The notes beneath the pieces were generated by a model that made no database searches, was not told the DNA's origin, and was given only the letters and a program-made list of their open reading frames with translations. Below, in pieces: positions 766 through 64,000 of a stretch of 64,000 nucleotides of DNA (position 1 is its first letter; each line of letters starts with the position of its first letter). Both the position numbers and the translations under genes were made by a program. The stretch is from Longibacter salinarum (GTDB lineage Bacteria; Bacteroidota; Rhodothermia; Rhodothermales; Salinibacteraceae). The DNA is taken from contig NZ_PDEQ01000010.1 of assembly GCF_002554795.1 (NCBI RefSeq), forward strand, positions 62,001 through 126,000, read 5' to 3'.

Positions 766-1254
766 CGACTCGTACTGCGCGTAGGTGGTCACGGGGCGGG
801 AACGGATTGGTCAGGAGAAACACCGTATCGCGTAAGCGCCGAGCCGTGGAAGGTTCGGGACTGGAATTGCGAAGCGGGAAGTGCGAAAGGCGAAGTGTTT
901 ACATCGAACCGTCGCGCCGGACCATGAGCGCTTACACATCCACACATCCGAACCTTCAAACTTCCATACCTTCAGAACCTGTTTGGTGGATGAATCGGTA
1001 GCCGACACGAGCGAAGCGACTGACGCAGTAAACACAGTGGGCGAAGCCCGTGTGGAGCGCTCAGGCGAGTCATGTAGCGGAGCTACTTGGCAAGTGAAGT
1101 AGCTGCACAGGGCGAGATCCACGAAGTCGCAGACCAGAGACTGTCCGCCAAACAGGTTCTCAAACCTCCACACCGTTTTCCCTCGGACACATCCGATCGC
1201 ACAGCCCGTAGGTATTCGCGTGCATCGAACTTTTGTCACCCACCTTCCCAGCTC
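766..1254. other. Intergenic spacer with word-like sequence and an inverted-repeat element
   Basis: No credible gene is seen here. Bases 866-900 carry TTCGC-type word sequence in the reverse sense (GCGAAGCGGGAAGTGCGAAAG), and 935-975 carry CACACATCC / CTTCAAACTTCC words. The inverted-repeat element at 976-1158 follows. Confidence 0.6.
976..1158. repeat. Inverted-repeat element, variant copy A (183 bp)
   Basis: The left end AACCTGTTTGGTGGATGAATC and the right end CTGTCCGCCAAACAGGTT are inverted repeats of each other. The ends match those of the 198-bp copies at 10,065, 26,447 and 41,767, but the core is different and is rich in CGAAGC / GTAGCGGAGCTAC palindromes. It encodes no protein. It is probably a non-autonomous, MITE-like or REP-like element. 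Confidence 0.75.
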
Positions 1255-5623: not shown

Positions 5624-6388
5624 ATGGCCAAGCGTGACATCATTCGGAGTCAGGCCATCGTTTTGCGGGGCATGGACTACAGCGAGACCAGCCGGATCGT
5701 GACGCTGTTCACGAGAAAGCAGGGCAAGATCAGTGTAATGGCGAAGGGCGCGCGTCGGACGAAGAGCTCGTTCGGGTCGACGCTCCAGCCGATGGCGTAC
5801 ACGCAGGTCGTGTACTATTACAAGCCGACGCGGACGCTGCAGATGTTGACCGAGAGCAGCCACGTCACCGCGTTCCACGACCTGAATCGCCGCCTTGAAA
5901 AGATCACGATCGGGTTACGCATCGTGGAGCTCGTCGATGCGCTCATGGAAGAAGAGGACCGTCAGCCGTCCGTCTTCGCCCTCGTCCTACAGGCCCTGGA
6001 TGCACTTAACCGGGCCGAGGAGCGGATCGACAACCTGTGGCCCTTCGTGCAGTTACGCATCGCTCGTGCGCTCGGTGTTGCACCATCGATCGACCGCGAG
6101 AACGTCGAGGCCGTGACCGATGCCGGCGGGATCCTGTCGCTGGCGAACGGCGGGGTGTACCCACGGACCGCCCGCCCGAGTCACGCCCGAACAGCCTCTC
6201 GCGCCGCACTTCGAGCATTCGCTATTCTCGCTCGAGCCGACATCGACGTCATCCTCCGCATGGACCTGGACGAGCAGACCCGAGCGCGCGTCCACCGGCT
6301 CGTCGCCGAATACATGGAGTTCCACTTCGAGTCCGCGTACCCGACCCGCAGCCGCGACGTCATCGCCCAGCTGAAGTCTGGGGGATGA
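5624..6388 (+). CDS. recO: DNA repair protein RecO
   Basis: This 254-aa protein belongs to the RecO family, which loads RecA onto SSB-coated single-stranded DNA in the RecFOR pathway. The N-terminal OB-fold is recognisable from SQAIVLRGMDYSETSRIVTLF and GKISVMAKGARR (about residues 8-47). A helical domain (LVDALMEEEDRQPSVFALVL) and the C-terminal FHFESAYPTRSRD follow. The four-cysteine zinc site found in many RecO proteins is absent. The start at 5624 follows a spacer without an obvious ribosome-binding site. recO lies two genes from lexA, so repair functions are grouped here. Confidence 0.9.
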   Translation: MAKRDIIRSQAIVLRGMDYSETSRIVTLFTRKQGKISVMAKGARRTKSSFGSTLQPMAYTQVVYYYKPTRTLQMLTESSHVTAFHDLNRRLEKITIGLRIVELVDALMEEEDRQPSVFALVLQALDALNRAEERIDNLWPFVQLRIARALGVAPSIDRENVEAVTDAGGILSLANGGVYPRTARPSHARTASRAALRAFAILARADIDVILRMDLDEQTRARVHRLVAEYMEFHFESAYPTRSRDVIAQLKSGG

Positions 6389-6804
6389 GGTTTGGACGTT
6401 TGAAGGTATGGAAGTATGAGAGTGTGTGGGTGTGAGAGCGAGAGAGGAGAGGGCGAAAGGGTGAAGGGGAGAGAGGGGTGAAGTGTGGACGTTTGGAGGT
6501 GTGAACGTGTCGAGGTTTGGGAGCAAGAGAGGCGAGCGAAACGAGAAACGGGTTACAGCGATGATTCGAAGCGGCCCAGCACTATCCCCAACTCTGAACC
6601 TTGAACACTGAACTTTGAACCCTCCGAAGGAGACGCGCTTGACCTTTTGCGGTGGGGTGGCTACTCTTACTGTGTGGATCATATGTTCCGGGCTGCAACG
6701 CCGCCAGAGGCCGGTTTTTTGTCTCTTGTCGGTTTGGGCAGCGGTCGGCTTCTGGGCCGGCCATTCCGTTCGCCGAGTCGTGCGACAGATCACGCCGTCA
6801 ACCC
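6389..6804. other. Intergenic spacer filled with word-like sequence
   Basis: No gene is supported. Bases 6389-6530 are a run of GT-rich words (GTATGGAAGTATGAGAGTG, GTGTGGGTGTGAGAG, GTGTGGACGTTTGGAGGTG). Bases 6595-6622 repeat TTGAAC / CTGAAC. The lexA promoter must lie in the remaining 6625-6804, but no box was identified. Confidence 0.5.
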
Positions 6805-7443: not shown

Positions 7444-7715
7444 GCGAGATGGGGAGGGGGAGCAAGGGGTAAGGGTGAGGGAGAGAAAGAGGGAATGGGG
7501 GAATGGGGGAAAAGAGGCTTGATGCGAGTGCTACTGCTCGATTCGGGCGCTGAAATTAGGTCCTTTTCCTCGAGGAGACTGCTAACCCGAATGCCTTCAG
7601 GCGTGCAGGACGCAGGTTTTCCTGCCGAAAGAGTTCTGAAAGCTTTAGATGTCTGCCCTGAAGCTTGTGAGCGCGATTGGGAAGTCCTGTCACTGTCACT
7701 TCATCTCGACGTCTT

Positions 7716-8339: not shown

Positions 8340-8520
8340 CAATCGGGGGATGAGGTATGCGCTGTGGGGGAGGAGAATACGCTCTTGATCCATAACTCTG
8401 GCGTTCGGCACGATGGTTCTGGGAAAATCCACGGTCCGCAAAATTAACGTTCCTACGTTCACACGTCCATACGCTAACACATCCACACATCCAAACCTCC
8501 AGATGTCCACACCGAACGGA
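8340..8520. other. Convergent spacer with CACACATCC words
   Basis: Bases 8447-8515 consist of words such as CCTACGTTCACACGTCCATA and CACACATCCAAACCTCC. This is the same family as at 940-975 and, in reverse sense, at 6389-6530. No hairpin terminator was found for either convergent gene. Confidence 0.45.
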
Positions 8521-9966
8521 TCACCGTTCTCCTCGGATGCGCTCGTAGGTTTTCTCCAGGTCGACATACGGCTCGGGGTAGTCGGCGCCAATGATGCAGC
8601 CGTACTCTTTCTGTTCCTCGCGGCTCATCGTGTGCGGCTCGTGGATGTATTGATCCGGCACGTCGGATAGCTCGGGCAGCCAGTGGCGGACGTAGTCGCC
8701 GTCGGAGTCGTAGCGCTGCGCCTGTTTGACGATGTTGAAGTAGCGGGAGCGCGGGTCATTGCCGACGCGGGAGTTGTATGCCCAGTTGCCCCAGTTGCTG
8801 GCGACATCGTAGTCGACCAATCGTGACTCGAAGTACGCCGCGCCCATGCGCCAGTCGAGCTTCAGGCTCTGGGAAAGCATACTGGCGACGTTCTGCCGGC
8901 CGCGGTTCGACATGAAGCCCGTCGTATTGAGCTCACGCATGTTGGCGTCAATGAACGGGATGCCCGTTGTCGCCGTCGCCCACTTCTCGAACGACTCGTC
9001 GTGGTAGGTCCAGTCGATGTCGTTGTCGTTGAGTCCGCCGGGGTGGAACAGCTTCGGCCCGGCCTTCCAGGTGACGTACGTGAAGAAGTCGCGCCAGATG
9101 AGCTCGAAGACCATCCAGTAGGTCGACTTATTGCTGACGCGCCGGTCCTCGTAGCGCTGGACCTCCTCGTAGATCTGTCGCGGCGTAATGCAGCCGTGCG
9201 CGAGCCACGGGCTGAACTTCGACGAGTAGCCTTCGCCCAGCAGGCCGTTGCGCGTCGCCTTGTATTCCTTCAGGTGATCGTCGCGCCAGATGTATTGCTG
9301 AATGCGGTCGAGGCCGCGCGTCTCGCCGCCCTTCCAGGGGAGCACGCCCCGCTCGTCGGCCGTCGCGTTGCCCTCGACCCCGAGATCCTCATTTGTCGGT
9401 ATGGTGCCGGGATCCAGGTCCTCCGGCAGGGGGGCGAGCGTCTCCGGCGGATCGATTGTCGGGCGCACCTCCGACTGCTTCTGCAGCTTCTTCCGGAACG
9501 GCGTGAACACGTCCGGCACGTCGTCCGCGCTCTCGAACGGCGCATCGTCCAGGTGGTAGAGCGTCTTCCCCCAGAAGTAGGCCGGCTGTGCGTTGGTGTT
9601 GCGGAGGGCCTCCTCAACCGCGTTCTCGACCTCCTTTTCCTCCGTGCCCACCTCCTCGAACATGTACACGTCCGTCGCACTCGTCTCGCGGACCAGCTCG
9701 GGCAGCACGTCCTCCGGTTTCGCATGGCGCACCACGAGGTCCGCACCCAGACCCTTGAGTGACTCCCGCAGGTCGGCAACGCTCTCCCGGAGAAAACGAG
9801 CGCGGATCGCCCCCGTCTTCGGCAGATCGAACATCGTCGTCGCGAAGTGTCGCGGGTCGAAGCAGTAGACCGGGATCACCACATCGTGGTGCTCCGCTGC
9901 ATACGACAGCGCCTCATGATCGCGAATGCGAAGGTCGTTCCGGTGCCAGACGATGGCCGTGGACAT
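8521..9966 (-). CDS. Cryptochrome DASH / photolyase-family flavoprotein
   Basis: This 481-aa FAD-dependent blue-light protein belongs to the CRY-DASH group, which repairs cyclobutane pyrimidine dimers mainly in single-stranded DNA. The N-terminal photolyase alpha/beta domain starts TAIVWHRNDLRIRDHEAL. The FAD-binding domain contains GEGYSSKFSPWLAHGCI, the DASH-like FELIWRDFFTYVTWKAG, MRELNTTGFMSNRGRQN and the WGNWAYNSRVGNDPR segment. Length and motifs are complete. A DUF2256 gene lies upstream on the same strand, a known pairing with cryptochromes, but a 198-bp inverted-repeat element separates them. Confidence 0.92.
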   Translation of the reverse strand: MSTAIVWHRNDLRIRDHEALSYAAEHHDVVIPVYCFDPRHFATTMFDLPKTGAIRARFLRESVADLRESLKGLGADLVVRHAKPEDVLPELVRETSATDVYMFEEVGTEEKEVENAVEEALRNTNAQPAYFWGKTLYHLDDAPFESADDVPDVFTPFRKKLQKQSEVRPTIDPPETLAPLPEDLDPGTIPTNEDLGVEGNATADERGVLPWKGGETRGLDRIQQYIWRDDHLKEYKATRNGLLGEGYSSKFSPWLAHGCITPRQIYEEVQRYEDRRVSNKSTYWMVFELIWRDFFTYVTWKAGPKLFHPGGLNDNDIDWTYHDESFEKWATATTGIPFIDANMRELNTTGFMSNRGRQNVASMLSQSLKLDWRMGAAYFESRLVDYDVASNWGNWAYNSRVGNDPRSRYFNIVKQAQRYDSDGDYVRHWLPELSDVPDQYIHEPHTMSREEQKEYGCIIGADYPEPYVDLEKTYERIRGER

Positions 9967-29789: not shown

Positions 29790-29814
29790 GACGGTGAGGT
29801 GTGAGGTTTGAGGT

Positions 29815-30222
29815 GTGAGGTGTCGGCGTGCGGGCCATTCCATTGCGGGTGATGCGTCAGTGCCCGATGTTGCGTACGGTGAGACCGTGTCCTTCACGTC
29901 GCGCCTCGTTTTTGGCTTACGTGCCGCCGTTGGAGCATGGGCTCTCTTTTTTCCATTTGAATCAACGTCGCCGCCGTATCTTCTGGTGGAGGCTGCTCTC
30001 ATCGTTTTGAGCGTCGTGTTAGGCTTTACCATTGAGCAATGGCACCAGAGTAATGACGTGGAATTGCGTGCGCAGCGCGCGCTCGTTTCCTTCCATCAGT
30101 AGATCGAAAACAATCGCGCCTAACTGGAAGACGCCCTCGCCATCTACCTAGAGGCCGTTGAAGATGTTCTTGTTTCACCGTAGGAATTGGCAGCGCTTGT
30201 TGAGCCTCTCGATGCATTCGTG
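29815..30222 (+). pseudogene. Decayed small membrane protein gene with three in-frame stops
   Basis: One reading frame gives a transmembrane segment PPYLLVEAALIVLSVVLGFT, then IEQWHQSNDVELRAQRALVSFHQ. It continues in protein-like sequence (IENNRA, LEDALAIYLEAVEDVLVSP, ELAALVEPLDAF) interrupted by TAG, TAA and TAG at about 30,100, 30,121 and 30,181. The pattern resembles small coiled-coil membrane proteins seen in related bacteria. The 5' end is uncertain and contains GTGAGGTGTGAGGTTTGAGG words. Confidence 0.55.
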
Positions 30223-33752: not shown

Positions 33753-34004
33753 AGTGTTGAGATTTGAGGAATGGGAGGGTGTGAGAAACGGCGAGAGGGT
33801 GAAAGGACGAAACGAGAAGGCGAAATTTGGAGTGCGGAGGGCGAAATGTGGCGACAGGTACGAGAGGGTCCGCGGGGTATGTCGGCTTTGGAAAAGTGGG
33901 GACCGATTGGTGGCGCCGATTCGGTATCGGAGTCAACCGGATCCGCAATCCTCAATCCGCAATCCCGAACCATTTCGCAATTCGCCCTTCCCATTTCGCA
34001 GTCG
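33753..34004. other. Word-like spacer between nosY and ric
   Basis: Bases 33,770-33,850 carry GAGAGGGTGAAAGGACG and GGAGTGCGGAGGGCGAAATG. Bases 33,940-34,005 repeat AATCC[TC]CAATCCGCAATCCC, CATTTCGCAATTCGCCC and CATTTCGCAGTCGC. Confidence 0.5.
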
Positions 34005-34823
34005 CTAAAAGTCTTTTTTCTGGAAGCCGCGCAGGGCGATCGCGAGCGGGATGACAACCCACAGCGCCAGGGCACTGAAGGAGAGCGCCATGCCCCACGC
34101 GCTGCCGAAGAACTGCTCGAAGATTGCGCCGGTGTAGCCCATCAGGGCGGAGATGTCGAACTGCAGCATCAGCAGGACGCGGCCGAGGTCGATCGGATTG
34201 AGCATCGTAAGGCCGATCATCGGTTTCTCCAGCGGATAAGCGGTGTAGGTGCTAGCGATCACGAGCACGAGTCCGTCGTAGATCACGGCAAAGAACAGCC
34301 AGCCGATGACCGAGACGGCGAGGCCGCGCACCTTGTCCTGCACGTACGTCGAGACCAGCGCGGCCAGACCGACGAACACGAACGTGAGTATGACGCCGAT
34401 GCCGAGCAGGAGCGCGAGCTCCACCCCGTTCCCCGCGACGGCACCGCGCAGGACGAACGGAAGTGCGACGCCGATGACGAAGCTGGCTGCGAGCGGCACA
34501 GCGAGGCCGGTATACAGGCCAAAGAAGAGGCTCGACCGGCGAACCGGCTGCGACAGCATGAGCTCGGTAAACTCCCGGGCGTTGTACAGATACATCGTCC
34601 CGAAAATGGCGCACACCAGCGGGACGAGGAACAGAACAACGTTCATTAGCCCAAGCAGGACCGATTCGCTGCTGCCGCTGAAGCGGAAGAAGCCCTCCGC
34701 GGCGAGAGCGAAGAAGACCGCGTAGGCGAGCACGCCGTTGTTGCGCAGGACATCGCTCAGTTCGTACGAAAAGATTTTGGCACTCGAGGAAAGCGCCGAT
34801 CGGGTGGTGGAGAGGGCCGTCAT
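34005..34823 (-). CDS. nosY: NosY-type ABC transporter permease
   Basis: This 272-aa integral membrane protein has about six helices and forms, with NosF, the ABC transporter needed to mature the copper-sulfide site of nitrous oxide reductase. Recognisable parts are FSYELSDVLRNNGVLAYAVFF, the coupling region LYNAREFTELMLSQPVRRSSLFFGLY and the C-terminal ALSFSALALWVVIPLAIALRGF. Its start overlaps the nosF stop by four bases (ATGA), so the two are translationally coupled. Homologous ABC-2 permeases have other roles; nosDFL context decides the name. Confidence 0.9.
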   Translation of the reverse strand: MTALSTTRSALSSSAKIFSYELSDVLRNNGVLAYAVFFALAAEGFFRFSGSSESVLLGLMNVVLFLVPLVCAIFGTMYLYNAREFTELMLSQPVRRSSLFFGLYTGLAVPLAASFVIGVALPFVLRGAVAGNGVELALLLGIGVILTFVFVGLAALVSTYVQDKVRGLAVSVIGWLFFAVIYDGLVLVIASTYTAYPLEKPMIGLTMLNPIDLGRVLLMLQFDISALMGYTGAIFEQFFGSAWGMALSFSALALWVVIPLAIALRGFQKKDF

Positions 34824-47086: not shown

Positions 47087-47410
47087 GGCATAGAGGAGCA
47101 GGCGGACAAAAAACACGCGAGCTACCGGAGATGCCGAAGAGACCGTTCCCGGGCAAAAGGAGGCCTCGCTTATTAACCGGTAGATGGAATCCAGAAGGTG
47201 AGGGGAAGCAATGTATGTGATCCGTTACACAAATGCAGATTTCGTGATGGCGCGCAGTTCATAGAAAGCCTGCACTTCCCAGAGCTTCACGACTTGGTTC
47301 GAGACGGGTGCACAGGGTTTGGGGGATGGGGGAGAGGGAGAATGGGGGAAAGGGAGAATGGGGGAAAGGGGGAGAGGGCGTGATACTTCATTTTGTCTCT
47401 GGCGAAGGTG
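47087..47410. other. Spacer with a dense G-tract next to CRISPR leader 1
   Basis: Bases 47,314-47,379 hold at least eight runs of three to five G (GGGTTTGGGGGATGGGGG, AATGGGGGAAAGGG repeated), able to form a G-quadruplex on the + strand. No gene is supported. Confidence 0.6.
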
Positions 47411-47579: not shown

Positions 47580-49620
47580 GATGACCCCACGCGAGTGGGG
47601 ATAGACCCTTCTGGGTCTTGGCCCGCAAGCACGTAAAACGGATGACCCCACGCGAGTGGGGATAGACCGCAGATCCTGCGCTCGCATATGCGCCTCACCG
47701 TGATGACCCCACGCGAGTGGGGATAGACCCTTGTAGGGAGCAGCCATGTTATTGCGTGTTAGGATGACCCCACGCGAGTGGGGATAGACCGCGACTGGAA
47801 GAGCTTGGCATTAGCAATACGTCGATGACCCCACGCGAGTGGGGATAGACCTCATATCAGTCAGTCGGTCATTGGAGTGCGTGCGATGACCCCACGCGAG
47901 TGGGGATAGACCCGCGAGAGTGGCCGGTTCTAGATGCCCTCCTGTGATGACCCCACGCGAGTGGGGATAGACCCTCTGCGATGGACTCATCCGTGATGCT
48001 TCGGCCGATGACCCCACGCGAGTGGGGATAGACCCCATTGCCAGCTGTAGCGAGGGTGCGGGCGCCTGATGACCCCACGCGAGTGGGGATAGACCCAGCC
48101 ACCAGGCCAAACAGGCAGCCGAGAAGCTGATGACCCCACGCGAGTGGGGATAGACCCTCTTGATTGATTGACTGGAAAATGCCCAGCCGGATGACCCCAC
48201 GCGAGTGGGGATAGACCCCAGACGGTGCATAGCGCGTGCTTATTTACAGCGATGACCCCACGCGAGTGGGGATAGACCCTCATTGTGATCCGTGGTTGTT
48301 AGGATGCGCGTGATGACCCCACGCGAGTGGGGATAGACCCCGGATGCTCGGTGCTGAGGCAGCTACGGCGTTGATGACCCCACGCGAGTGGGGATAGACC
48401 TGATGCTGCAGCCACGCGCGCGAGTCTGGACTTGATGACCCCACGCGAGTGGGGATAGACCTCTCGGGTTCGGGGAGAAGGCCAGCGCGAATCAGATGAC
48501 CCCACGCGAGTGGGGATAGACCCACGTCGGTCGGCTGCCATCCATCTTCCTCCGCGATGACCCCACGCGAGTGGGGATAGACCCCCGCTCGTCATGGCCG
48601 TCATTGGCGGCGTGATGATGACCCCACGCGAGTGGGGATAGACCGCCTTTCAGATGCTGGAAGCGCAAGGGCTCACGGATGACCCCACGCGAGTGGGGAT
48701 AGACCCCTGGGCACGCAGGATCTGCGCGCGCTCAAGGTGATGACCCCACGCGAGTGGGGATAGACCCCAGACGTCGCCTCGCCTCTGGGGCCTTCCGGTG
48801 ATGACCCCACGCGAGTGGGGATAGACCGATCCCCGCGTCCCAGGTCGGCTTTAGCCTGTCGATGACCCCACGCGAGTGGGGATAGACCCCTGGCGGACAT
48901 ACTCCCCAGAGTCCCGCCCGAGATGACCCCACGCGAGTGGGGATAGACCCCGAGGAGTTCGGGGATGAGGTGCAGCTAGAGTGATGACCCCACGCGAGTG
49001 GGGATAGACCCCATATCCCCGCCGAAGTTTCGCTCGGCAACGAGATGACCCCACGCGAGTGGGGATAGACCCGCCGATGGCGAGAAGGTGGGCGACTCCA
49101 TTCGGATGACCCCACGCGAGTGGGGATAGACCCGTGAGGGACATGCTCCGCGCGGACCCGAAGGCGATGACCCCACGCGAGTGGGGATAGACCCTTGGTG
49201 CACCCAACGGCACGAAGAACCAATCCGATGACCCCACGCGAGTGGGGATAGACCCGGACTCGGCAAGTCGGGGCTTCTGACGATCCTGATGACCCCACGC
49301 GAGTGGGGATAGACCCGTCTGTGCGCCCGTCTGCATCGGTGGCGTACGGATGACCCCACGCGAGTGGGGATAGACCCGATAATAGCACACCTGAGACGAT
49401 GAGCCAAAAGATGACCCCACGCGAGTGGGGATAGACCTGATATCGTGCATCCTTCTTCTGCTTCTCGCTTGATGACCCCACGCGAGTGGGGATAGACCTC
49501 GTCGCAGTGCCTGCACTGTACGCACCATCAAGATGACCCCACGCGAGTGGGGATAGACCTGGCGCGTGAGAGACGGGGTGCGCGCTCGATGCGATGACCC
49601 CACGCGAGTGGGGATAGACC
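47580..49620 (+). CRISPR. CRISPR array 1, type I-E, 34 repeats and 33 spacers
   Basis: The 28-bp repeat begins GATGACCCCAC, has the hairpin CCCCAC-GCGA-GTGGGG, and ends GGGGATAGACC. The period is exactly 61 bp throughout, so spacers are 33 bp (or 32 bp if the mostly conserved C after the repeat is counted as repeat). No repeat between first and last differs from the consensus as far as I checked, which indicates a well-kept array. The 3' part GGGGATAGACC parallels E. coli GGGGATAAACC, so transcription is on the + strand with the leader on the left. Confidence 0.98.
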
Positions 49621-49823
49621 CAATTTGAGGTATGGGGAATGGGGGAAAGGGGGATGAGGAGGAGCCGAGGTCTTGGTCAATGTTTGTGTCGGATGAGGGG
49701 GGACGTTGTCCCGTCTTTAGCGTGACTGAGGGCGCCATTTTGCTCGAGTCTTTTCTCGGGTCGGCATAGTCCGTTTTCTTTCTATGAACCACTTCGCATT
49801 TCGCCCTTTGCAGTTCGACTTCG
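49621..49823. repeat. Array 1 trailer, first copy of a tandem duplication
   Basis: The 203 bp after the last repeat are repeated, with some changes, at 49,852-50,054 (TTTGAGGTATGGGGAATGGG, GGTCAATGTTTGTGTCGGATG, CTATGAACCACTTCGC). The two copies are separated by a degenerate CRISPR repeat. Confidence 0.85.
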
Positions 49824-49851
49824 CGCAGACCCCACGCGAGTGGGGATAGAC
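49824..49851 (+). CRISPR. Detached degenerate CRISPR repeat in the trailer
   Basis: Twenty-six of 28 bases match the array 1 repeat; it begins GCAGACCCC instead of GATGACCCC. The hairpin and the GATAGACC end are intact. It lies 231 bp after the last true repeat, too far to be a normal array unit. Confidence 0.9.
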
Positions 49852-50302
49852 CCGATTTGAGGTATGGGGAATGGGGGAAAGGGGGATGAGGAGGAGCTGA
49901 GGTCCTGGTCAATGTTTGTGTCGGATGAGGTGAGATGTTGTCCCGTTTTTGTCGTGATCGGGGCGTCCTTCTGCTGGAAACCTTTTCGGGTCGGCGTGCA
50001 CCGCTTCATTCCTATGAACCACTTCGCGTTTCGCATTTAGCATTTCGCCCTTGGCTCACTTCGCCCTCGATTCACGCGAATCCCCAATCCTCAATCCACA
50101 TCCATAAACCATCCCGGTTGCGTGCCGAGCCGCTACGATCTGGCTTAATCATCTCCCACCGCAGAGTGGATCGATTGATCGACGCACGATCCAACGTCAA
50201 CGTTCAACCGCGAAACGTTTACATGCACTAAACCAATGGTTCAAACACTGACTGCACTGTAGTGTATGTGCTGGGTGTTTATATTAAGTAGCTTATATTT
50301 GC
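49852..50302. repeat. Array 1 trailer, second copy, and spacer
   Basis: This is the second copy of the trailer duplication (to about 50,054), followed by TTCGCATTTAGCATTTCGCCC and AATCCCCAATCCTCAATCC words (50,020-50,110) and AT-rich sequence. TATATTTG at 50,294-50,301 fits the Bacteroidota -7 box TAnnTTTG but nearly touches the next ATG. Confidence 0.6.
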
Positions 50303-51070
50303 ATGGGAAAAAGAGACGCATATCCGTCAATTGTGGCATGGGGTCTGTCAAAGCATTTTGGTAAAACCGACGTGCTAGACAACTGCGACCTGGAAATCAG
50401 AGGAGGAATGTGTTTGTGCGTGCTCGGACGGAATGGTGCGGGGAAGAGCACGCTCATCCACCTACTTGCAGACTTGATCGCCCCGGATTCTGGCGGCGTG
50501 CGGATCGATGAGCTGAGTTACGCAGACCATTCGGTCGAGATTAAGTCGCGGCTTGGCGTGTTTCCGGAGCAGAACCCGGCGATTCCCGAGCTGACCGGCG
50601 ACGAGTATCTTGAATTCGTCGGCCGCCTCCACGGGTTACCCGAAGCAGATCGGGTCGAACGGTCGGCAAGCCTGATCAAGTTCTTTTTCGATGGCGCGTA
50701 TCCCACGGACACTCGTATCAAGAACTACTCAGCGGGGATGCGTCAGAAGATCGGCTTGATTGGAGCCTTGCTCCATAAGCCGTCCCATCTGATTCTCGAC
50801 GAGCCTTTTGCGTCTCTCGATCCGCCCTCGGCCATGCAGCTCGTCAACCTCTTGAATGACTATCGGTCTTCGCAGCGGACGATGCTGATTTCCTCCCACG
50901 ATCTTGCCTACGCAGAGCAAGTGGCGACACACGTGACGCTTCTGGAAGGCGGCCACCTCTCCGAGCCTCAGCCTATCGAGAGTCTAGCAGAGGGGACGGC
51001 GGGACAGCGTCTGCTCGAGTTCTTTGGCGATAACCACGAGTCCGTTCCGGAATGGCTAACCCAAGCTTGA
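50303..51070 (+). CDS. ABC transporter ATP-binding protein
   Basis: This 255-aa ATPase has Walker A GRNGAGKST (42-50), Q-loop FPEQNP, signature YSAGMRQKIGL, Walker B LILDEPFASLDP and switch His in ISSHDLAYAEQ. It pairs with the following membrane protein, whose start overlaps its end by 19 bases. The cargo is unknown. If the TATATTTG at 50,294 is the promoter, the in-frame GTG at 50,333 (giving a start at VAWGLSKHFG) would be a better start than this ATG. It sits between array 1 and the cas genes but has no known CRISPR role. Confidence 0.85.
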   Translation: MGKRDAYPSIVAWGLSKHFGKTDVLDNCDLEIRGGMCLCVLGRNGAGKSTLIHLLADLIAPDSGGVRIDELSYADHSVEIKSRLGVFPEQNPAIPELTGDEYLEFVGRLHGLPEADRVERSASLIKFFFDGAYPTDTRIKNYSAGMRQKIGLIGALLHKPSHLILDEPFASLDPPSAMQLVNLLNDYRSSQRTMLISSHDLAYAEQVATHVTLLEGGHLSEPQPIESLAEGTAGQRLLEFFGDNHESVPEWLTQA

Positions 51071-52416
51071 CATCGTTGGGGCTTTTTATCGCTCGCAAGC
51101 AGCTCGCCGCCTACGGGAACCACCGGCTCCGAATCCTCACCCACGCGTTTCTTGCCCTGACGGCCGTGGGCTATGCGGTCCTTTTTGCTCTGCTGATTGA
51201 CCGTCCACACATCTTGGGCGCTAGCAGTCAGACCATGATTGCGCTACTGAATGTCGGTGGAGCGGTCTTCGTGCTCATTTCCGGATGGTTTCCCAGCGTC
51301 AAGCGACGCCAGCACATCATCCATCCGGTGCATCCGATCGGGAAGTGGCGTGCCGCGTCTCTGGAAACAGGATTAGCCCTGCTCGGCTTCGGTGCCTTTT
51401 GTGCGGCAGCCGCCCTGGTGACTATCAGCGTTGTCAGCGCGACGTACGGTCTGCCGGCGGCCATCGTGACCGTTCTGTGCTGGTGGGGCGCATTCACGGC
51501 GGATCGTACCTTGCGACTCCTGGTGCAGCGGTCGGCAAAAGACGACAGAGGTGCAGCAATTGCTTTCCTGTTTTCCGTTGTGGGATGGGGTCTCGCGCTC
51601 GCTCTCCTTTCTTGGAAGGGGATGTCAGTAGCAGTTATCAGCATCCTCACTCTTGCCGTACCGGCGGAGACCGCGGCGGCCCTGCGACTCGAGGGACTTC
51701 TTCGAACGGCAACGGCACGCGGAGGCAGGGACACGACCCAATCCACCCGGATCGGTGCGCACATCGCGACTGTCTACCGCACCCGACCGGTACGCATTTC
51801 TCTCGGCGTCGCGTTCGGGACAAAAATAATGATGCTGATACTTGATATCGTGTCGCGGACGAAAGGTACGCCCCTCCTGGGGGGCGAGTGGTTAACGAAC
51901 GCTTGGTTGGGTACACCATTTATCTATTTTACGTTCGTGTTTGCTAATACCTATGGGCACGTTCGACAACTCTGGCTCACAGAGTGTATCCATGCAACAG
52001 CGCGCCCGAACCCACTGTGGCGGTACATCCAGATCGTCGCGCCGGTGATCATCGTCGATATTTTCGTAAGTGCAGCTTACTTCCGGGCGACGCAAAGCCT
52101 CCATCTTGAAACAGCAATTTTGTATACGACGACGCTGATCCTACTCGTCGCGACAGGGTTTATCGCCTCGATTTATCTGCCTCGGTTCGTGGAGAAAGTG
52201 ATCTCATTTACAAATCCTCAGAACTCCGTTTCGATGCTTGTCACGCTACCCGTGGCAGCAACTGTGGGTGTCAATGCTCTTCTCGTCGCATCCGGACACT
52301 ATGTTTTAGCCGCTGGGCTCGTGACGTTGTTGATGGGGGGCACCTGGGCAGTCGGTCGGGTGCAGTCGAGATTTTTGGCACACCGGATGTACGCCCGGCT
52401 CTTCACCGAAGACTGA
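51052..52416 (+). CDS. Polytopic membrane protein, ABC transporter permease partner
   Basis: This 454-aa protein has about ten to twelve transmembrane helices (TVLCWWGAFTADRTLRLLV, AIAFLFSVVGWGLALALL, IIVDIFVSAAYF, AILYTTTLILLVATGFIASIYL and others) and no catalytic motif. The coupled start inside the ATPase gene identifies it as the likely transmembrane half of that transporter. The family could not be named. Many bacterial export systems of this two-gene kind move lipids or drugs, but nothing here specifies the cargo. Confidence 0.78.
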   Translation: MANPSLTSLGLFIARKQLAAYGNHRLRILTHAFLALTAVGYAVLFALLIDRPHILGASSQTMIALLNVGGAVFVLISGWFPSVKRRQHIIHPVHPIGKWRAASLETGLALLGFGAFCAAAALVTISVVSATYGLPAAIVTVLCWWGAFTADRTLRLLVQRSAKDDRGAAIAFLFSVVGWGLALALLSWKGMSVAVISILTLAVPAETAAALRLEGLLRTATARGGRDTTQSTRIGAHIATVYRTRPVRISLGVAFGTKIMMLILDIVSRTKGTPLLGGEWLTNAWLGTPFIYFTFVFANTYGHVRQLWLTECIHATARPNPLWRYIQIVAPVIIVDIFVSAAYFRATQSLHLETAILYTTTLILLVATGFIASIYLPRFVEKVISFTNPQNSVSMLVTLPVAATVGVNALLVASGHYVLAAGLVTLLMGGTWAVGRVQSRFLAHRMYARLFTED

Positions 52417-52497
52417 GGTGCGGAGCGAGGAGAGGGGATTAGGGACAAAGGCGAATCCCCAATTCGAAGTTCGAAATTCGCAATTCCAATTGAGTCA

Positions 52498-53067
52498 ATG
52501 CGAGGAACCGAACGATCATTGTGCCGACCGTCCACGCCGCTGGTCGTGGCTCCCCTCCGGTTTCTCGACATCGAAACCTCGGGGCTGCGCGCCGACCGCG
52601 GGGCACGGATTACGGAGATTGCGTTGCTGTCCGATCGTGACGTGAAGCTCGACTGGTGCTACGACGAATGTGGCGAGATCGGATCGGAGGCTCACGATGT
52701 AGCGGTGCACTCACAACTCGCTCATCTCGTTCGGGGCATGTCGGAAACCGTTATCGTCGCGCACAACGCTCCGTTCGACCTTAAATTTATCGCGTACGAG
52801 GCGCGGAGACTTGGCGTACGGGGTCTGGACGTTCGGGTGATCGACACGCTCGCACTGTCGCGACGGCTTCACCCGGACCTCCGGAACCATCGGCTGGAGA
52901 CGCTGGCGGAGGCGTTCGGGCTTTCCGCTCCCGGTCCATTCCATACCGCGATGACGGATGCTAATGTCACGCGCTCCCTCTTTCAGCATTTACAGACGGA
53001 CGGAGCGCTCGACACGCTCGGTGACGCAGGCATTCGGCGCCTCCGGTGGTCGGAGCCGATGGAATAG
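52498..53067 (+). CDS. DnaQ-like DEDDh 3'-5' exonuclease
   Basis: This 189-aa nuclease has a complete DEDDh active site: Asp24 and Glu26 in FLDIETSG, Asp94 in VAHNAPFDLKF, and His149 with Asp154 in FHTAMTDAN. Related proteins are the proofreading subunit epsilon, RNase T and the exonuclease domains fused to Cas2 in some type I-E systems, where they trim prespacers. It lies 196 bases before cas3 on the same strand, and the cas2 here has no fused DnaQ domain. A link to adaptation is possible but unproven. Confidence 0.87.
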   Translation: MRGTERSLCRPSTPLVVAPLRFLDIETSGLRADRGARITEIALLSDRDVKLDWCYDECGEIGSEAHDVAVHSQLAHLVRGMSETVIVAHNAPFDLKFIAYEARRLGVRGLDVRVIDTLALSRRLHPDLRNHRLETLAEAFGLSAPGPFHTAMTDANVTRSLFQHLQTDGALDTLGDAGIRRLRWSEPME

Positions 53068-61814: not shown

Positions 61815-61892
61815 TCGGCGTGCGGGTTTCATACACGTGATCTCGATTCACTTCGCATTTCGTATTTAGCCCTTCGAATTGCCTTCTGCTCC
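61815..61892. other. Word-like sequence inside the cas operon
   Basis: Between cas6e and cas1, 61,847-61,885 reads TTCACTTCGCATTTCGT and ATTTAGCCCTTCGAATTGCC, the same words seen after array 1 and near nosY. It is the only such insertion among the cas genes. Confidence 0.7.
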
Positions 61893-62798
61893 ATGGTTTT
61901 CAAAGGACGACTCGGCCTCGATACGGCGCGCGTACCGCACACGGATCGACACGGCCTGATGTGGCTCGAACGCGGACGGCTGGCCGTGGAGGATGGGAAT
62001 GTCGTGTTCACGACGGCCGGAAGCGACGTGCTGGCGGCGGGCCGGTATAACATTCCGTTTCAGCAGGTGTCGAACATCCTGCTCGGACCGGGTGGTGTCG
62101 TCAGTCATGATGCCCTCCGTCATCTCGCCCGGCAGCAGACGGGTCTCGTGGCAGTCGGGTCGAAGGGCGTGCGGTTGTACGCGGTGTTCATGCCATTCGG
62201 CCCCGACCGCTCCGATCGTGCGCGTCAGCACGCCGAGCTTTGGGCAGATCCGGATCGACGCATCGACGTGGCCCGCGCCATGTACGCTCGTCGGCTTGGG
62301 GGCGAACTGCCGCCCCATCGCCGCGACCTCGATTCGCTCCGTGGACTGGAGGGGACGCGCGTCCGGCAGGTGTACCGAACACTTTCCGAGCAGCACGGCG
62401 TCCCGTGGTCCGGGCGCCGGTATGACCGTTCGAACCCGGAATCGGCTGATCCGCCGAACCGCGCGCTGAATCACGTCGTCACCGCCATGTATGCCGCCGC
62501 CCGTGTGGCCGTCGCGCTCGCTGGTGCTCTACCACAGCTTGGGTTCATTCACGAGTCCTCTGGTCACGCCTTTGCCCTCGACATCGCGGACCTCTACCGT
62601 AGCGAGATCACCGTTCCCGTGGCCTTTCGTGCGGCCAAGCGATTCGAGGAGCGCGGAGGCCGAACGCTTGAGTCCGTCGCTCGAAAAATGGCCGGTCGGA
62701 CCCTCTACGAGGAGGACGTGATTCCGATGATGATCGACGATATCGACGAGTTGCTCACGCTCGATAAACAAGACGGTGAGTCTTCCGCGTCAGACTGA
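61893..62798 (+). CDS. cas1e: Cas1e integrase
   Basis: This 301-aa metal-dependent integrase, with Cas2, inserts new spacers at the leader end. The active-site residues align with E. coli Cas1 as Glu153 (RGLEGTRVRQVY), His220 (GFIHESSGHAF) and Asp230/Asp233 (LDIADLYR). An N-terminal beta domain (about 1-95) precedes the helical catalytic domain. All catalytic residues are present, so adaptation should be functional. It follows cas6e after 78 bases of word-like sequence, and cas2 follows 77 bases later. Confidence 0.96.
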   Translation: MVFKGRLGLDTARVPHTDRHGLMWLERGRLAVEDGNVVFTTAGSDVLAAGRYNIPFQQVSNILLGPGGVVSHDALRHLARQQTGLVAVGSKGVRLYAVFMPFGPDRSDRARQHAELWADPDRRIDVARAMYARRLGGELPPHRRDLDSLRGLEGTRVRQVYRTLSEQHGVPWSGRRYDRSNPESADPPNRALNHVVTAMYAAARVAVALAGALPQLGFIHESSGHAFALDIADLYRSEITVPVAFRAAKRFEERGGRTLESVARKMAGRTLYEEDVIPMMIDDIDELLTLDKQDGESSASD

Positions 62799-63449: not shown

Positions 63450-64000
63450 GGTGACCCCGTGCGAACGGGGATAGACCCATGAGTTTTCGACAGGATCAGG
63501 TAAAGGAAATGGTGACCCCGTGCGAACGGGGATAGACCCGCCCGAGCTGCCCCAGGCGCTGCGCAATCTCAGGTGACCCCGTGCGAACGGGGATAGACCC
63601 TTTGCGAAATCATTTCGAAGTACACAGAATGGGGTGACCCCGTGCGAACGGGGATAGACCCGAGATCCACCTAGACCACCTTCGCTGGGCGCCGGTGACC
63701 CCGTGCGAACGGGGATAGACCCGACCTTGTCGAGATGACGGGTCGTGGCGTCCGGGTGACCCCGTGCGAACGGGGATAGACCCACAAGGACACGGACACA
63801 CAAAGAGATCGCGAAGGTGACCCCGTGCGAACGGGGATAGACCTGATTAGGTCGTGAGGCTCGAGATGTGACGCATGGTGACCCCGTGCGAACGGGGATA
63901 GACCCTCTTGAGAATCCATATGTCCCGCTCCAGATTAGGTGACCCCGTGCGAACGGGGATAGACCCTCAACCAGCGCCTCATACGGGCTGTATGGATCGG
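63450..64000 (+). CRISPR. CRISPR array 2, type I-E, at least 9 repeats, cut by window edge
   Basis: Repeats start at 63,450, 63,511, 63,572, 63,633, 63,694, 63,755, 63,816, 63,877 and 63,938, an exact 61-bp period. The next repeat begins with GG at 63,999. The 28-bp repeat begins GGTGACCCCGT, has the hairpin CCCCGT-GCGA-ACGGGG, and ends GGGGATAGACC. It differs from array 1 at five positions, four of them paired in the stem. Spacers are 33 bp. Confidence 0.98.

Follow-up and report, generated by a model that had tools for sequence, protein, structure and literature searches.

Past the last CRISPR spacer of an array in the window, the 64,000-nucleotide stretch of Longibacter salinarum contig NZ_PDEQ01000010.1 that was analysed here, the DNA is present in two near-identical copies with one CRISPR repeat between them (49620-50020). 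Type I-E cas genes (Cas6e, Cas1e) lie downstream, and a second CRISPR array with a diverged repeat starts near 63,632. The intergenic spacer preceding an ABC-transporter ATPase gene (50303-51070 +) carries short tandem arrays on both of its sides, a G-strand array on the left (49858..49886) and a C-strand array on the right (50023..50048), where 'G' denotes an array whose plus strand is clearly richer in G than in C, and 'C' the opposite. The order within the CRISPR stretch is thus also G (49,858-49,886) then C (50,023-50,100), although this stretch was excluded from all counts. Further arrays of 7- or 8-bp units are found elsewhere in the window (Table 1). That at 33941..33965 is followed by TTCGC words at 33,974, 33,981, and 33,995, up to the stop codon of a minus-strand gene (34005-34823), and that at 47315..47378 lies between a minus-strand gene ending at 47116 and the CRISPR array.

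Table 1. Coordinates of short tandem arrays in the window
Position	Strand	Feature	Details
869..894	-	GCGAA words (reverse of TTCGC)	steps 14 and 7
6387..6446	+	G-strand octamer array GTTTGGAC/GTATGGAA	starts at stop codon of + gene ending 6388
7481..7511	+	G-strand octamer array GGGGGAAT	
8447..8509	+	C-strand octamer arrays ACGTTCCT.. and ACACATCC	adjoin stop side of minus-strand gene 8521-9966
29794..29823	+	G-strand heptamer array GTGAGGT	four bases past end (29789) of + gene
33941..33965	+	C-strand array AATCCGC/AATCCTC	Tandem Repeats Finder, direct reading
47315..47378	+	G-strand octamer array GGGGGAAA/GGGAGAAT	score 18.5; omitted from counts
49626..49654	+	G-strand partner in near copy of 49,858-50,100 spacer	
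49793..49804	+	TTCGCATTTCGC in near copy of the spacer holding 50023..50048	one CRISPR repeat earlier
49858..49886	+	G-strand partner TGAGGTATGGGGAATGGGGGAAAGGGGGA, 7/8-bp beat	scores 7.5 (period 7), 10.5 (period 8)
50023..50048	+	C-strand heptamer array TTCGCGT TTCGCAT TTAGCAT TTCGC	period 7, score 11.5
50079..50100	+	C-strand heptamer array AATCCCC AATCCTC AATCC	Tandem Repeats Finder and word steps
52463..52486	+	TTCGAAG/TTCGAAA/TTCGCAA array	between genes 51052-52416 + and 52498-53067 +
61852..61877	+	TTCGCAT TTCGTAT TTAGCCC TTCGA	step 7; directly before type I-E cas1 (61893-62798 +)

Words of the TTCGC/AATCC type, read directly, are present at all six places at which the original prediction had located them, and the main step from word to word at these places is 7 bp. 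Successive word starts are 7, 7, and 7 bp apart for TTCGC/TTAGC at 50,023-50,044 and for TTCGC/TTCGT/TTAGC/TTCGA at 61,852-61,873, and 7 and 7 bp apart for AATCC at both 50,079-50,093 and 33,947-33,961. The TTCGC starts at 49,793-49,800 show a step of 7 followed by steps of 14 and 6, the reverse-strand GCGAA starts at 866-900 steps of 14 and 7, and at 52,440-52,495 stand two related words, TTCGA and AATTC; this region includes a 7-bp array, which lies mid-spacer and was scored as an exception to the side rule described below. Steps of 13 and 16 also separate sub-arrays (33,961-33,974; 50,044-50,060-50,076). Tandem Repeats Finder reports period 7 at 33,941-33,965, 50,079-50,097, and 52,461-52,486.

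Beyond the window, the analysis covered contig C2 in full, portions of C4 and C5, and C10 around the window, giving 1,245,609 bases (28% of the 4.41-Mb genome) with 854 called genes and 835 spacers; genes were called with a home-made codon-score finder, and their start positions are approximate. A patch was defined as a stretch matching itself at a given shift, and patches were counted in spacers of at least 40 bp (785 spacers, 242.5 kb). Spacers below 40 bp (patch counts) or 60 bp (arrays) and the CRISPR stretch of the window were dropped, as were, from the array set onward, patches also periodic at 1-4 bp and the 4 of 102 arrays that had no clear strand. At lags 7 and 8, 63 and 42 patches were found, against shuffle means of 0.0 and 0.1, and the multiples 14, 16, 21, 24, and 28 gave 56, 34, 32, 15, and 19; every remaining lag from 3 to 30 gave 0 to 4, and ten dinucleotide shuffles averaged at most 0.6 patches per lag. 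By comparison, 602 high-scoring genes (857.7 kb) contained 2 patches at lag 7 and 0 at lag 8. For an initial 278 spacers, autocorrelation of base matches gave z values of 6.3 (lag 7), 9.0 (lag 8), and 9.8 (lag 14). In the same sets, lags 10 and 11 had z values of -0.3 and -2.0 and only 2 and 0 patches. The periodicity check proposed with the original prediction, here run on 28% of the genome, therefore returned both enrichment and periodicity, but with a beat of 7 and 8 bp in place of the 10-11 base rhythm expected.

A distinct repeat vocabulary in spacers, as had been proposed, is borne out by the contrast between spacer and coding DNA at lags 7 and 8: of 110 patches, 95 lie outside genes, 13 across a gene end, and 2 inside. 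The sequence TTCGCATTTCGC occurs 18 times in the whole genome (10 forward, 8 reverse; reversed pattern 0), and AATCCNCAATCC 32 times in the 1.25-Mb sample, 29 of them within called spacers (reversed control 0). Altogether 102 arrays were identified in 67 of the 717 spacers of at least 60 bp. By simple word count they fall into the families TGAAC (33 arrays), octamer ACTTC/ACGTC (18), AATCC (14), TTCGC (8), AACGY (6), and GGGGAAA (5), the six together comprising 84 of the 102, with 18 others. The word varies along a single array, whereas the step stays constant at 7 or 8. The description of these words as a 'second word family' was thus sound as to the words and understated as to their number, there being at least six families with one common layout.

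This layout is a strand rule. Of the polarised arrays, those of type G occupy the left half of their spacer in 47 cases and the right half in 5, those of type C in 7 and 39 cases, respectively (Fisher p 1e-14); that is, at either edge the G-rich strand mostly runs 5' to 3' away from the gene and into the spacer. The rule is significant separately in ++ spacers (left/right: G 17/0, C 3/7), -- spacers (G 15/5, C 1/18), and +- spacers (G 12/0, C 1/9), and the -+ spacers, with 10 arrays only, gave G 3/0 and C 2/5 (p 0.17). It is seen with both unit lengths (7-mers G 29/1, C 5/23; 8-mers G 18/4, C 2/16) and in weaker patches (G 26/6, C 6/26). Spacers with several arrays show the order G-C 20 times and C-G never, where 8.0 C-G orders were expected (P 8e-5, 200,000 label shuffles). 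A lone G array is present in 23 of the 67 array spacers and a lone C array in 15. At other lags, examined with a lower threshold, polarity was inconsistent, lags 10 and 11 leaning alike on small counts (6/2, 2/6; 7/5, 2/6), and when position was tested one word at a time, in an initial set of 243 spacers, the outcome was no more than a weak trend for TTCGC. G-quadruplexes were considered as a cause of the polarity and rejected: of the 98 polarised arrays, 84 do not reach four GGG runs and 43 do not reach four GG runs, and 39 of these 43 obey the side rule, compared with 35/41 and 12/14 in the other classes.

The arrays are also placed unevenly with respect to genes. At stop edges the median distance from stop codon to array is 12 bp, and 34 of 58 arrays begin within 30 bp (15% expected for random placement); at start edges the median distance to the start codon is 110 bp, with 12 of 40 within 30 bp. 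Twelve of the 110 patches cross a stop codon, 11 of them G-rich on the coding strand. Among spacers of 100-600 bp, arrays are present in 14/54 convergent, 6/90 divergent, 12/239 ++, and 23/149 -- cases, -- gene pairs having an array at roughly three times the rate of ++ pairs. G-C skew is flat in array-free convergent spacers, while array-bearing ones are skewed even with the arrays masked, and the polarity thus travels with the arrays at stop edges. Array-free divergent spacers have a skew of about 0.2 to -0.17, in the same sense as the array polarity at starts; since array-free spacers upstream of starts are equally skewed, composition or selection may set the polarity at start edges. At C2:714098, as read from the sequence, the last codons of a gene diverge from its counterpart in the sister species exactly where the array side begins.

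Arrays differ between L. salinarum and this sister species in presence, length, and word. Across 51 orthologous gaps an array is in neither species in 38, in both in 5, in L. salinarum only in 6, and in the sister species only in 2, gain and loss being indistinguishable with two species only; five of the eight one-species array spacers carry a G plus a C array. Three further pairs of stretches, with 20 collinear gaps, gave 16, 1, 1, and 2 for the same classes. Orthologous arrays differ in unit number (C2:118720, C2:714820) or in word (C2:111970). The strand rule itself is found again in 317 kb of the sister genome (left/right: G 19/1, C 3/10; order G-C 9, C-G 0), in stretches chosen partly by array hits.

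Other rearranging or repeated sequences accompany some of these spacers. A perfect 28-bp palindrome, CCACCGTCGCACGGCCGTGCGACGGTGG, is dispersed through the genome (C2:461884, 714169, 725038, C5:238312, and others), with 12 copies at up to 4 mismatches in the L. salinarum sample and 4 in that of the sister species. It stands directly between a G and a C array twice, and 5 of the 12 copies have no nearby array. The copy at C2:714169 is common to both species, but only in L. salinarum does it have arrays on its flanks, one G and one C. A single small open-frame gene is inverted between the species (C3:30642-31125 in L. salinarum, L248:2995-3461), and GGTTCAG-type arrays lie at the edges of the inverted segment, an arrangement that would fit recombination between inverted arrays in this one event.

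Among 60 relatives, 20 have a match to TTCGCATTTCGC, but only L. salinarum (18, control 0) and its genus mate, the sister species (14, control 1), stand out, the others having 0-3 copies with controls of 0-2. A GGTTCAG 20-mer is found in 4 of 296 same-phylum genomes, L. salinarum included. A 20-mer of the (TTCGCAT) array matches 116 stretches of the GTDB species collection (about 0.5 expected at random, by estimate) and only two IMG/VR contigs. The 80 GTDB stretches retrieved as loci include Planctomycetota, Verrucomicrobia, Gemmatimonadetes, Acidobacteria, Bacteroidales, Clostridia, and Proteobacteria, and with the seed masked they contain 137 lag-7 patches against 2 in one shuffle, with 17 at lag 8 and 14 at lag 9. 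Their order is G-C in 33 and C-G in 7 cases within 400 bp, and 0 and 12 at 600-3000 bp. In an ORF-based side test, 41 of 83 seeds fell within greedy ORFs and 16 at the edge of their locus; of the 25 that could be used, 16 had the right ORF as the closer one (p 0.23), but only 1 of 6 among the convergent cases. For these loci the ORF-based counts were set aside and the gene-free order counts only were used. The sequence GGTTCAGGGTTCAGGGTTCA retrieved 66 IMG/VR stretches, with G-C 38 and C-G 13 within 400 bp and, at a lower threshold, 48/3 within 100 bp and 3/14 at 101-400 bp. Several of these stretches lie on a common contig, and both samples are seed-picked. Four of the IMG/VR contigs (L337, L309, L339, L355) hold compact, partly phage-like gene clusters in which, at several boundaries, G arrays lie past stops and C arrays ahead of starts, and a GCGCAAGCG-type core recurs between arrays in L339 and L355. 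Of nine proteins beside arrays compared with PHROGs, one is a phage head/protease protein (L337) and the other eight had no match.

The arrays are of the same general kind as the cyanobacterial STRRs and the GGGAATC-type heptamers of Xanthomonas and Nostoc. The STRR unit, reportedly given as CCCCAAT by Mazel and colleagues in 1990, matches the L. salinarum word AATCCCC. Interspersed 7-bp tandem repeats, as described for STRRs of heterocystous cyanobacteria, occur here as well; the hairpin ability ascribed to STRRs in that description (PMC2670836) is seen in many GTDB and IMG/VR loci, but is not general in L. salinarum, where paired arrays fall below random complementarity. The account of GGGAATC repeats in two Xanthomonas and of GGGGA(C/T)T repeats in Nostoc is closer: their G-rich strand lies near the 5' neighbouring ORF in any gene orientation, and they are rare between divergent ORFs and in Xanthomonas form convergent plus/minus pairs (Rehm et al., 2015; PMC4692102). 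Degenerate heptamers, mostly intergenic and differing in length between sister species, are common to both systems, and the direct intergenic heptamer repeats (63 lag-7 patches in spacers, 2 in coding DNA), the nearness of the G array to the 5' ORF in any orientation, the convergent pairing (G-C order only), and the scarcity between divergent ORFs all recur in L. salinarum. The GGGNATC word with its quadruplex-capable G-tracts does not, only the AATCC family (14/102) being near it in word. L. salinarum further differs from the repeats so described in having many words per genome, 8-bp units, mostly different words on the two sides, and a polarity extending to arrays with fewer than four GG runs, and in its lower conservation between sister species (5 of 13 array-bearing gaps shared, against 83% of Xanthomonas repeats in the same gene context). 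On sequence and layout, its arrays appear to work like GGGNATC-type repeats and not to be members of that group.

The TAACTGA direct repeats, patchily distributed in Beggiatoaceae, Cyanobacteria, and Bacteroidetes, are likewise described as intergenic heptamers with 7-nt indel steps, mixed in some genomes with other heptamers (MacGregor, 2015; PMC4679880). In the Beggiatoaceae genome of that account, however, one fixed word lies mostly just upstream of starts, whereas in L. salinarum stop edges are favoured and words vary. In the titles and abstract openings listed by the literature searches, apart from the papers cited, no prior statement of a strand rule across words was found. The layout is known already, from the published account, for GGGAATC-type heptamers in Xanthomonas and Nostoc (PMC4692102), and what is new here is its independence of one word, of G-tracts, and of the 7-bp unit.

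We propose that these are strand-polarised short tandem arrays that would gain and lose whole units by slippage in tolerant spacer DNA, with a polarity set when the array forms, a reading to which we give about an even chance. Slippage in whole units fits the unit-number differences between orthologous arrays, and the prominence of lags 7 and 8 and their multiples alone, in spacers and not in genes, also bears in its favour; a link between heptamer slippage and polymerase contact length is a proposal of others cited by Rehm et al. (PMC4692102). If the growing 3' strand were the G-rich one, an assumed formation bias, the polarity would follow from array formation; it would then be no regulatory code, and no dedicated binding protein would be needed. 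Counting against slippage with formation-set polarity are the enrichment in convergent spacers, which would fit a role at gene ends as well, and the complementary two-side words of the GTDB and IMG/VR loci (28/40 and 37/51), against 6/26 here.

Polarity built in at formation is favoured, and its main rival is selection for a G-rich outgoing RNA. The arrays could be selected transcription-boundary elements insulating neighbouring genes, making the outgoing RNA G- or purine-rich (R-loop, quadruplex, pausing) and the incoming RNA C-rich (Rho-type sites). Their density, highest in convergent spacers and low in divergent ones, and the start of G-rich arrays just past stop codons would suit such a role, as would the transcription of the Xanthomonas heptamer repeats noted in the published account (PMC4692102). 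The array-free convergent spacers, however, lack such skew, which argues that there is no general need for it; only 67 of 717 spacers have an array, with a presence that varies between sister species; and the C-rich side is remote from the stop codon of the gene whose transcript it would terminate. We regard insulation of neighbouring genes as fairly unlikely.

A second rival, suggested for STRRs, is that G and C arrays form stem-loop elements by pairing with each other, in RNA or DNA, and serve as terminator, as processing site, or in transcript stability. The STRR description (PMC2670836) and the close G-C pairs of the seed-picked loci, most of which are complementary, speak for it. In L. 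salinarum, however, complementarity between the left and right arrays of a spacer falls below that of random pairs (mean score 7.27 versus 10.9, sd 1.4; 26 pairs), 20 of the 26 pairs share no 6-mer, and the many spacers with a lone G or lone C array leave no partner. Pairing is hence not what is kept, and hairpin pairing as a general cause is unsupported in this genome, although GTDB and IMG/VR loci are often complementary. Array spacers exceed array-free ones only slightly, if at all, in the length of their perfect hairpins (mean best arm, 100-600 bp: ++ 6.9/5.7, -- 5.4/5.3, +- 7.0/6.4, -+ 7.0/5.8). A stem-loop reading is already unlikely for this genome, and overall we consider it improbable.

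The arrays may also be scars of break repair in spacers: iterated additions of 7 or 8 bases, rich in G, would have lengthened the 3' strand of each broken end before the two ends were ligated head to head, much as two telomeres fuse. We consider this a long shot. The telomere unit of plants is GGGTTTA, and the word GGGTTCA found here is one base off it. Such repair, if it occurs, would explain the fixed G-to-C order and the independence of left and right words in L. salinarum, the spacers with both arrays in one species and none in the other, the arrays starting in last codons including the stop, and the abrupt G-to-C junctions. Head-to-head arrays with the G strand running 3' into the spacer and word-independent sides are indeed what is seen in this genome, but in the GTDB and IMG/VR loci the words of the two sides are not independent. 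As agents, an RVT_1 reverse transcriptase and Ku were both rejected: PF00078 had no match in L. salinarum (controls positive in 3 of 14 genomes; divergent enzymes lie outside the scope of this model), and PF02735, looked for as the sign of classical end joining and not of other end-joining routes, had none in L. salinarum or in the sister species, whose genome is 83% complete, with matches in 4 of 60 relatives. Break repair, if true, would thus amount to a bacterial end healing needing neither enzyme.

Start-codon-linked regulatory sites acting post-transcriptionally, as proposed for TAACTGA, are suggested by arrays adjoining starts, such as that before cas1 (61,852-61,877), and by the phage-like contigs, but arrays are commonest where both edges are stops and lie at a median 110 bp from starts. 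A start-codon role was rejected as a general explanation, convergent spacers being the richest, and seems to us most improbable.

Arrays as the ends or cargo of MITE-like mobile elements are, at best, a very slim prospect. A 206-221 bp repeated element with CTACCGG inverted ends (C2:82795, 105108, 203545, 482275, C4:98079) has an internal G-strand octamer patch in at least two copies and accounts for 2 of the 5 wrong-side G arrays, and the one-species spacers with both a G and a C array point the same way; the other arrays inspected, however, have no common core or ends, and their two sides differ in words. Within the window, a 185-bp element at 975-1159 with the inverted ends GAACCTGTTTGG/CCAAACAGGTTC appears MITE-like, having a second copy of equal length at C2:364399 and an end word present 14 times in the 1.25-Mb sample. 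Helically phased sites for nucleoid-associated proteins, which had been inferred from a 10-11 bp rhythm and would suit repeats nearly confined to spacers, fall with the absence of that rhythm at lags 10 and 11 and have next to no probability. A nucleoid protein could still read 7-8 bp units with no helical phasing, although nothing in the data pointed to one.

The strand rule holds for several unrelated 7- and 8-base words, in L. salinarum and in its sister species, and the same order prevails in seed-picked loci of several phyla and in phage-like contigs. As an explanation of the polarity, G-quadruplexes lose weight through these observations. What has to be explained is why short tandem arrays arise or persist for the most part in the orientation whose G-rich strand leads away from the gene, a question that touches on the growth of spacers in bacteria and on the resolution of breaks or slippage within them.
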